Assembly (NCBI RefSeq): GCF_002356335.1
Contig: NZ_AP018165.1
Location: forward strand, 2,790,001-2,854,000
Length of the DNA stretch: 64,000 nucleotides
Direction: 5' to 3'
Source of the DNA: [Mycobacterium] stephanolepidis
GTDB taxonomy: Bacteria; Actinomycetota; Actinomycetes; Mycobacteriales; Mycobacteriaceae
Position 1 is the first letter of the stretch. The number at the start of each line of letters is the position of its first letter. Below the pieces are notes generated by a model. That model worked only from the letters and a program-made list of their open reading frames with translations, did not search any database and had not been told where the DNA came from. The position numbers and the translations under genes are program-made. Of the stretch, positions 2,034 to 3,551 are shown one piece after another.

Positions 2034-3313
2034 CGACAATCGTGATCTCCGCGTACGGCACCCGCGGAGACGTCGCACCGCTGACCGGGCTGGGAATTCG
2101 GCTGCGCGACAGCCTGTCCGCGCACGTGGTCATTGCCGCGCAACATCCCTACGCACAGCTGGTGCGTGCCGCCGGCCTGGAATTTCGGCCATTGCCCGGT
2201 GATACCGAGACCGCAACGCGGGACTCCCAACACGGTCAGGCACTCGTGGACGGCGCCCGGATGCGCCCCTCGGGCGCTGCTCTCGCTGAGATGCGCGTCG
2301 CACTCGCGGGAGTCGGCGAGGCGATGGCCGACACCGCGCACGACGCCGATCTCCTGTTGGCAGAGGGCCCCGTGGGCACTCTGCTGGGGTATCACGTTGC
2401 CGAGGCCCTGGGCGTACCCAGCGCAGGACTCTCACTCCAACCAGCGTGCCCCACCGCAGAATTTGCACCCCCACCGCTCACCATCCGTTCGTTCGGCGGG
2501 TACGGCAATCGGTTGGTATGGCGCCTCGCCCTGTCGGGTGAACGGATCTACACGCCACTCATCGACAGTCTGCGCCACCACCTCGGATTGGCCCCCGCGT
2601 CGCTGCGTCGATATCACGGGGTCCGCGCCAACAGCTGGCCCATCGTGCACGGATACAGCCGGCATGTCGTCGCACGTCCCCGCGATTGGCGCGCGCACTG
2701 GTACCAGACCGGCTACTGGTGGCCTGTCCGTGACGAAAACTGGCTGCCCTCAACAGAACTAGAAGAATTTCTGGAGAACGGACCTGCCCCCGTCTTTCTC
2801 GGTTTCGGCAGTACTGCAACGTCACGGGGGCCAGAACTATCGGAGATCATTGCCACCGCGACACATGCCGCCGGGGTCCGAGCGGTCGTACAACGCGGGT
2901 GGGCCGGACTCACCGGTCTGGGCGATGACGTCCTCACCATCGACGATGTTCCGCACTCCTGGCTGTTTCCGCGGATGGCTGCTGTCGTCCACCACTGCGG
3001 CGCCGGTACCGCCGCAGCCGCGCTGCGCGCCGGAGTCCCCTCAGTGCCAGTGCCCGGCATCATGGACCAACCCTTCTGGGCCGCCCGATTGTCTCAAGCC
3101 GGTGCAGCCACCAGTCCGCTACCGCGAGTGTCGCTACGAGCCGACGAGCTCTCGGCATCGATTACACAAGCGATCACTGAATCACGGTATCGCCAAGAAG
3201 CCCAACGCCTCTCGCGACTGATTAGCGCCGAGGACGGCGTCGGGTCAGCGGTGAAGATCATCGCTGCGATGTTGGACGCCACAACGATGAAAGGTGCACA
3301 TCATGGCTACTGA
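2030..3313 (+). CDS. GT1-family (MGT/UGT-like) glycosyltransferase
   Basis: This 427-residue protein has the two-domain GT-B layout. The N-terminal acceptor domain starts TTIVISAYGTRGDVAPLTGL, the pattern of sterol/macrolide-type glycosyltransferases. The C-terminal donor domain carries VHHCGAGT around residue 325, followed by MDQPFWAARL, whose Asp-Gln pair normally holds the sugar of the nucleotide donor. The second Gly of the usual HHGGAGT is Cys here. Family members glucosylate macrolides, flavonoids, glycopeptidolipids or sterols. I chose ATG 2030 over an upstream in-frame ATG at 1940 because it overlaps the TetR stop in an ATGA junction and begins exactly at the conserved strand. Its 3' end overlaps the AtpE-like start by 11 bp, so the two are translationally coupled. 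Confidence 0.88.
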   Translation: MTTIVISAYGTRGDVAPLTGLGIRLRDSLSAHVVIAAQHPYAQLVRAAGLEFRPLPGDTETATRDSQHGQALVDGARMRPSGAALAEMRVALAGVGEAMADTAHDADLLLAEGPVGTLLGYHVAEALGVPSAGLSLQPACPTAEFAPPPLTIRSFGGYGNRLVWRLALSGERIYTPLIDSLRHHLGLAPASLRRYHGVRANSWPIVHGYSRHVVARPRDWRAHWYQTGYWWPVRDENWLPSTELEEFLENGPAPVFLGFGSTATSRGPELSEIIATATHAAGVRAVVQRGWAGLTGLGDDVLTIDDVPHSWLFPRMAAVVHHCGAGTAAAALRAGVPSVPVPGIMDQPFWAARLSQAGAATSPLPRVSLRADELSASITQAITESRYRQEAQRLSRLISAEDGVGSAVKIIAAMLDATTMKGAHHGY

Positions 3314-3551
3314 TCTACTCATGGGCAACGCACTGCTGGCCGGAGCGATAACGCTCGCGGGCGGCGCGATCGGCGCCGGTATAGGTGACGGTATGGCCGG
3401 AGCACAGCTCATTGCCGGGGTGGCCCGCCAGCCGGAATCTCAGAATCGTTTGTTTACGCCATTTTTCATCACCGTGAGCCTCGTGGAGGCCACTTTTTTC
3501 ATCAATGTGGCGTTCATGGCACTCTTCGTGTTCGCCACACCTGGCGGGTAG
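3303..3551 (+). CDS. Orphan ATP synthase c subunit (AtpE paralog)
   Basis: The 82-residue protein is a complete two-helix F-type c subunit. Helix 1 contains GGAIGAGIGDG, the polar loop is ARQPESQNRLF, and helix 2 carries the ion-carrying Glu62 in SLVEATFFIN. It is strikingly close to canonical mycobacterial AtpE, yet no other atp gene is nearby. Against the M. tuberculosis sequence as I recall it, Asp28 and Glu61 are kept (here Asp29, Glu62), but Ala63 is Thr64 and Tyr64 is Phe65. Both positions line the bedaquiline site. ATG 3303 is chosen over GTG 3294 because AAAGG lies about 8 nt upstream. It overlaps the glycosyltransferase 3' end and shares the TetR-controlled operon. It may form mixed or replacement c-rings, or act as a target decoy. 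Confidence 0.9.
   Translation: MATDLLMGNALLAGAITLAGGAIGAGIGDGMAGAQLIAGVARQPESQNRLFTPFFITVSLVEATFFINVAFMALFVFATPGG

Follow-up and report, generated by a model that had tools for sequence, protein, structure and literature searches.

Why should a mycobacterium carry a gene for the c-subunit of the ATP synthase rotor outside any atp operon, behind a repressor gene? The question is raised by a 64,000-nucleotide stretch of [Mycobacterium] stephanolepidis DNA (contig NZ_AP018165.1, positions 2,790,001 to 2,854,000; hereafter the window), in which such a paralog, here called cX, is the last gene of an overlapping operon with the order TetR, glycosyltransferase (GT), cX (Table 1). The answer that we favour, and consider reasonably probable from sequence comparisons, is inhibitor-induced replacement of the c-ring combined with glycosylation, directed against natural macrolide-like inhibitors of Fo. 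It is favoured because the predicted operator is conserved, an antibiotic-recognition regulator takes the place of TetR in some loci, the drug-binding face is substituted, cX is under purifying selection and the cassettes have been shuffled. A natural c-ring inhibitor, probably a macrolide-like polyketide, would bind TetR (or, in some loci, a MerR protein with a TipAS domain), and the inhibitor-bound regulator would open the operon. The GT would glycosylate the inhibitor, and cX would replace the housekeeping c-subunit in newly made rings. As we infer it, the cX ring would no longer bind the inhibitor, and ATP synthesis would go on. Genomes, contigs, loci and database proteins are cited below by G, C, L and P numbers.

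The cX gene product and the housekeeping c-subunit

An earlier note, made from the letters of this DNA, had described a complete c-subunit gene coupled to a GT1 gene behind a TetR gene, with no further atp gene in the window, and each of these statements held. The gene is intact, with 82 codons for amino acids, and its product has the ion-site Glu and the equivalent of Asp28. It matches Pfam PF00137 (42.4 bits, cut-off 24) and NCBIfam PRK05880, 'F0F1 ATP synthase subunit C' (129.6 bits, cut-off 120), and the closest solved structures are ATP synthase c-subunits (9vks, 112 bits). The TetR stop and GT start overlap in ATGA (2030-2033), and the first 11 bases of cX (3303-3313) are also the last of the GT gene. 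A tblastn search of the window (E <= 1e-3) with nine Tsukamurella operon atp proteins matched cX alone. A promoter scan found none, and the one terminator-like site found lies inside cX, against 1.1 expected.

Paralogs of the cX type are referred to as orphans and compared with the copies in atp operons. E61, G19, G25, G27, G29, R41, Q42 and P43 were invariant in 37/37 distinct aligned orphans, and Asp28 was replaced by Asn in 7/37 distinct orphans and 2/35 distinct operon copies. As aligned, cX retains the essentials of a c-ring subunit, namely the glycine-rich helix 1, the RQP loop and Glu61.

The proposal also depends on a canonical atpE outside the cassette. The nearest genome examined (G001) encodes an identical cX protein and, elsewhere, a second c-subunit copy 71% identical to it. 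All 32 genomes carrying an intact orphan had at least one additional c-subunit match, the atp-operon context of which was read in some, and 13 of the 14 genomes reached through further loci (four of them Nocardia) had two or more PF00137 matches, the exception being G769, in which the orphan is broken. Compared with housekeeping mycobacterial AtpE, the bedaquiline target, cX is alike in family, length and ion-site Glu, but it lies outside the atp operon and behind a repressor, its helix-2 face is altered and it belongs to a separate tree group.

Substitutions at the drug face

Alignment with M. tuberculosis AtpE, whose numbering is used throughout, confirmed the two differences named in the earlier note, Thr at A63 and Phe at Y64 of the window cX, and added G58S and L68V. 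Residues were compared between 48 orphans (37 distinct) and 46 operon copies (35 distinct). Four of the orphans (P0054, P0063, P0066, P0080) came from a protein database and were assigned by sequence, with gene context unseen. Left out of the counts were the broken L164, L141/L163 (one contig), L196, L197 and L198; the drifted L189 (G256); the distant orphan of G029 (L160); the Nocardia Fo-set copies; the duplicates L092-L095 and L101; and the canonical-like non-operon copies L088, L089, L090 and L190. The last four (in G407, G228, G049 and G363) have no atp genes in the stretch read and another copy elsewhere in the genome. L087 is part of an atp operon and was treated as canonical.

Between P52 and P79, the membrane part of helix 2 was nearly invariant save for orphan changes at positions 54, 58, 63, 64 and 68; at the other positions of this part at most 5% of the distinct orphans differed. 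F54L or G58S was present in 48/48 orphans and 0/46 operon copies (49/53 once L189 and the canonical-like L088-L090 and L190 are added), and a change at A63, Y64 or L68 in 44/48 orphans against 1/46 operon copies. Four of the five sites were changed in 27 orphans, three in 16, two in 1 and one in 4. Helix 1 and the loop of the orphans also differed widely from those of the operon copies. Substitution at a putative inhibitor site that is otherwise conserved is the pattern seen in resistant spare-target systems. G58 presumably corresponds to one of the positions of oligomycin resistance in yeast.

Bedaquiline is reported to contact L59, A62, A63, Y64, F65, I66 and L68 and to form bonds to E61 (PMC11672644). 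Its analogue WX-081 selected A63T and A63V in M. tuberculosis, with a raised bedaquiline minimal inhibitory concentration (MIC) (PMC12188713), and A63V and D28N are listed as bedaquiline-resistance changes (PMC6021634). The sites of oligomycins and venturicidins overlap each other close to the E61 carboxylate, and those of oligomycin and bedaquiline overlap as well (PMC8249445, with PMC7438494 as a further source for yeast).

Regulators, predicted operators and the glycosyltransferase

A predicted operator of the pattern GACCNNNNGGTC (GACC-NNNN-GGTC), centred at -18, precedes the TetR gene in 27/27 class-A TetR cassettes with cX, from Mycobacterium, Gordonia and Tsukamurella. In 22 of those 27 it is the perfect palindrome GACCGATCGGTC, which occurs only once in the window. 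The second, ATG-containing copy was found in 26/27 of these cassettes, and both operators were found in 5/5 class-A TetR-GT loci without cX. None was found at these positions in 10 class-C loci, in which TetR is about 40% identical and the start codons are less sure. Overall, palindromes of at least 12 bp lay close upstream of 25/37 TetR genes against 0.6 expected. The TetR protein of the window is 58-94% identical to those of the mycobacterial class-A cassettes and 48-51% to those of five Gordonia and Tsukamurella-type loci. With its TetR N-domain and a predicted palindromic operator before its own gene, the window TetR fits an autorepressor unit, and because the operon genes overlap, the twin operator probably controls cX as well.

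Some loci have a different regulator. A MerR protein with a TipAS antibiotic-recognition domain, which we take to be a TipAL-type antibiotic-responsive regulator, is encoded directly 5' of cX in L070, in L100 and, as a truncated form, in L086; it also stands before TetR-GT in L181 and near TetR-GT in L183 (tblastn). The MerR and TipAS domains exceed the Pfam cut-offs in L070, L100 and L181, as expected of that type, and the difference is that here an ATP synthase subunit would be controlled, judging by gene position alone. G262 has its TipAS-MerR-cX pair on one contig and a TetR-GT2 pair on another. The MerR matches of L086 are split into two pieces with a transposase/integrase-like open reading frame (ORF) between them, and such ORFs, judged by their translations only, lie close to the MerR-cX pairs of both L100 and L086.

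The best NCBIfam match of the window GT is the rifamycin-inactivating Rgt (130 bits), and Rgt was likewise the best match, over nearly the full length, of all four cassette GTs tested (97-130 bits). Since the family cut-off is 800 bits, far above these scores, the cassette GT resembles Rgt as its best match but is no member of that family. Among solved structures, the GT comes closest to glycosyltransferases of sterols and glycopeptides.

Distribution and cassette layouts

The genus was surveyed with cX as query in 396 Mycobacterium genomes, and genomes with two or more matches and an unlisted second copy were searched again. C-subunit matches were obtained in 386/396 genomes and an intact orphan in 32/396, which amounts to 35 loci (L052-L086), since G045, G160 and G271 have two each. 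The layouts were TetR-GT-cX (15 loci), TetR-GT-cX-GT2 (9), TetR-cX-GT2 (3), TetR-cX (2) and TipAS-MerR-cX (2, one truncated), and 4 loci had none of these genes nearby. A regulator thus adjoins 31/35 mycobacterial orphan loci, TetR in 29 and TipAS-MerR in the 2 just mentioned. A class-A TetR (59% identity or more) was present in 26 genomes of the genus, 22 of which hold an intact cX.

Beyond Mycobacterium, two orphan loci each were read in Gordonia OPL2 and Tsukamurella sp. 8F, and further orphans in Tsukamurella ocularis, Tsukamurella sp. 1534, G568 and G607. Going by sequence, proteins named as those of G. bronchialis, G. soli and G. alkanivorans also appear to belong to the family. Eight loci outside the genus (L096, L100, L105, L114, L145, L147, L156, L158) comprised six with TetR and GT, one with TipAS-MerR and one with neither; in L105, TetR and GT are divergent from cX. 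Order-wide, two matches at E <= 1e-20 were obtained in six of 397 genomes (G001, G262, G316, G568, G607 and G029), and G029, from another family, has a distant, TetR-linked orphan (L160). A class-wide search of 296 genomes that started from the T. ocularis orphan gave two matches at E <= 1e-8 in G001 and G839 only. The two matches of G839, which belongs to another order, are adjacent c-subunit matches (G839:C294:5035-6053), and in G251 and G318 the paired matches come from a full atp operon that is present twice.

Flanking genes like those of the window were found only within the M. chelonae group (7/40 loci). L059 is a mosaic, with a class-A cX (96% identical to L060 and 76% to L082) beside a class-C GT (73% to L082) and TetR (82%). 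The variable sites and shuffled modules indicate that parts have been exchanged and that the association persists. In G045, about 39 kb of contig C85 separate L082 from L060, two orphan cassettes that differ in class.

Selection, origin and loss

Among 14 orphan pairs with synonymous divergence up to 1.3, the ratio of nonsynonymous to synonymous substitution rates (dN/dS) was 0 to 0.16, and in three operon-copy pairs it was 0.063-0.14. The cX gene is under purifying selection comparable to that on operon atpE, which rules out a pseudogene or chance ORF.

A tree of orphan and operon copies, as the earlier note had suggested, gave two separate groups. The orphans formed one group (90/82) apart from the operon copies, and Gordonia-type orphans were nested among the mycobacterial ones, which leaves recent in-host duplication unsupported. 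With columns 54, 58, 63, 64 and 68 removed, 33/36 orphans still grouped (98/90), and a single clade of all orphans was not rejected (approximately unbiased test, p 0.57). Convergence at the drug site was therefore set aside as the sole cause of the grouping. L114, L147 and L158, which stand apart in the full tree, are probably the three ungrouped orphans and may represent a second origin. A phage origin was dismissed, with no match among 50,697 phage records, as was a plasmid origin, for which the one match, on a record with the label of a Tsukamurella plasmid, was a complete atp operon of the ordinary kind.

In three genomes (G105, G067 and G314) the segment marked in Table 1 is missing at the window's site, and bases like the cX 3' end (GGCGGGTAG or GGCGGATAG) are kept, which suggests that the cassette was lost there. 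G256 has an open but drifted cX copy (L189) beside GT fragments, and broken copies occur in G137, G161 and G054. A weak partial match is shared by eight genomes (G384, G181, G079, G116, G136, G246, G277 and G410). The two that were read (L197 in G384, L198 in G181) have a class-C-like orphan fragment in a larger unrelated frame, and the shared match looks like the relic of a lost cassette.

Alternative explanations

Several observations weigh against inhibitor-induced ring replacement. The hardest problem is dominance, since in Podospora one wild-type subunit per ring is reported to suffice for oligomycin sensitivity (PMC4956034). The drug-face pattern is incomplete: A63, Y64 and L68 are unchanged in four counted orphans (L100, L114, L147, L156), and the whole face is unchanged in the four canonical-like non-operon copies from draft genomes. 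Three of the five substituted helix-2 positions coincide with bedaquiline contacts, which is not significant (P = 0.12), and statistical enrichment at the contacts was dropped as an argument. The A63T and A63V mutants of M. tuberculosis are reported to have carried Rv0678 mutations too (PMC12188713). No TetR, GT or MerR of these types lies near the orphans of L075, L076, L078, L080 (one of which sits close to a contig end) and L096, and cX has been lost or has decayed in several lineages. Finally, TetR-GT pairs without cX are common. Among 59 TetR matches in the genus, 29 lie away from known cX; 20 of these were fetched, and in 20/20 a GT gene follows TetR directly and cX is absent (in L173 and L174 the contig ends inside the GT, with the downstream sequence unseen). 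The GT may therefore have its own job. In our reading, the TetR-GT pair would have existed first, as a detoxification unit, and would have gained the spare target later. One of the fetched pairs (L182) comes from G294, in which contig C4 has three TetR matches of the same score and identity (at 4554685, 5041320 and 5341096).

These pairs also speak for a TetR-GT unit that serves detoxification or glycolipids on its own, with cX as a passenger, or as the source of a partial or inhibitory ring, and the sterol and glycopeptide enzymes among the structural neighbours of the GT agree with this. We consider it quite unlikely, as the selection on cX is comparable to that on operon atpE, L056 and L083 have TetR and cX but no GT that can be recognised, and cX occurs with another regulator class too. 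More weight, though still well on the improbable side, is given to a physiological rotor isoform, in which cX would alter coupling, proton affinity or ring formation under some condition, TetR would sense a metabolite and the drug-face changes would be a by-product of ion-site retuning. Podospora anserina has two c-subunit paralogs with differing expression (PMC4956034), and helix 1 and the loop, off the drug face, hold many of the cX changes. A core isoform would, however, be expected to be steadier and to need no glycosyltransferases, whereas cX is patchy (32/396), with losses and relics, and is linked to GT and TipAS genes. That surplus c-subunits or rings act as a decoy that soaks up inhibitor is barely credible: a single small membrane protein could be made in bulk, and no atp gene lies beside cX in the window, but a decoy should keep its binding face, and helix 2 near Glu61 is changed in 48/48 counted orphans.

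The earlier note had proposed inducible resistance or bypass to c-ring-directed compounds, bedaquiline among those named, by target replacement plus glycosylation. The general proposal is the best-supported reading, whereas its bedaquiline part is weak, two carriers being susceptible. M. peregrinum DSM 43271 (L093) and M. arosiense DSM 45069 (L101) carry cassettes, and their bedaquiline MICs of 0.0313 and 0.0078 ug/mL fall within the range of the other tabulated species (PMC9769519). For M. chelonae ATCC 14472, a strain in which the cassette was not checked, the value is 0.0156 ug/mL (PMC9769519). Bedaquiline is probably neither the natural ligand nor countered under the test conditions. A cassette for bedaquiline or diarylquinoline resistance in the narrow sense is accordingly rated very unlikely, even though A63T itself was selected by a bedaquiline analogue (PMC12188713), the MIC of M. 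cosmeticum DSM 44829, whose cassette status is unchecked, is among the higher ones (0.5 ug/mL; PMC9769519), and an orphan-type protein (P0085) comes from an M. cosmeticum metagenome bin. The family spans genera and is therefore older than bedaquiline.

Relation to known systems

The closest parallel to inhibitor-induced ring replacement is Nocardia rpoB2, a duplicated, rifampicin-resistant RNA polymerase beta subunit. It too is a mutated spare of an essential target, with drug-modifying enzymes (rifampicin glycosylation, monooxygenase) in the same bacterial group (PMC5051949). In the present case the target would be the ATP synthase rotor, and the spare and the GT share one repressor-controlled operon. 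The beta subunit is single-copy and free of the dominance problem, whereas the multi-copy ring has one. The Atp9-5 and Atp9-7 genes of P. anserina are, like cX, two differently regulated c-subunit genes in one organism, but the organism is a fungus, their expression is tied to growth state, oligomycin resistance came from induced mutations, and the portion of that account drawn on here mentions neither a drug-sensing regulator nor a GT (PMC4956034). Photobacterium profundum atpE2 is also a second c-subunit gene, but its report names two ATPase sets in the title (PMC10054830), whereas cX is a lone gene. No prior description of such an atpE paralog or of a spare-target c-subunit was found by title and abstract start, in a search that left most subscription papers and all preprints outside. 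The spare-target logic is known from rpoB2, and its use on the ATP synthase rotor appears to be new.

We give even chances to the wider claim that an exchangeable, inhibitor-sensing cassette replaces a whole rotor ring in vivo. It would be the first spare-target resistance for a rotary motor, would have to solve mixed-ring dominance and would signpost undescribed natural c-ring inhibitors sensed by TetR or TipAS regulators in mycobacterial habitats. ATP synthase has been validated as a target of tuberculosis drugs, and the site of natural macrolides on it is an overlapping one (PMC8249445 for the site). If the claim is true, nature long ago evolved both rotor poisons and spare parts, operator opening would offer a ready assay for natural c-ring inhibitors, exchange of a multi-subunit ring would become testable in a living cell, and developers of ATP synthase drugs would have a reservoir to check for cross-recognition.

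Features of the window and related observations

Table 1. Coordinates of the cX operon and its flanks (positions in the window)
Feature	Position	Strand	Remark
Predicted TetR operator 1, perfect palindrome GACCGATCGGTC	1386..1397		centre 18 bases 5' of TetR ATG
Candidate operator 2, GACC-ATGC-GGTC	1406..1417		encloses TetR start codon; 20 bases from operator 1
TetR-family repressor, 207 amino acids	1410..2033	+	Pfam TetR_N 46.6 bits
GT1 glycosyltransferase, 427 amino acids	2030..3313	+	Pfam EryCIII-like_C 60.2 bits
Shine-Dalgarno-like AAAGGTG for cX	3290..3296	+	direct reading of letters
cX, orphan F-ATP synthase c-subunit paralog, 82 amino acids	3303..3551	+	ATG 3303, TAG 3551
Segment missing at the same site in G105, G067 and G314	1353..3534		related-genome comparison
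Upstream flank gene	123-1271	minus	no Pfam match
Downstream flank, metallopeptidase gene	3552 onward	minus	

Six Nocardia contigs (L125, L130, L131, L132, L135 and L136) have a set of atpI, a, c and b genes with a mycobacterial-type c-subunit, and L125 has a second b-like gene by Pfam. No atpA match was found in the fetched stretches of these sets. The two Nocardia-set genomes checked (G760 and G761) have a full operon elsewhere with a very different c-subunit. Could these membrane-sector sets be a spare Fo without F1?

In the window, next to the peptidase gene, lies a cluster on the minus strand (4573-11585) with transglutaminase-like, circularly permuted ATP-grasp/Alpha-E and DUF2126 amidoligase genes. 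An ArsP_1-type permease gene and then a gene for a DUF1980 protein lie on the plus strand at 11771-13851.
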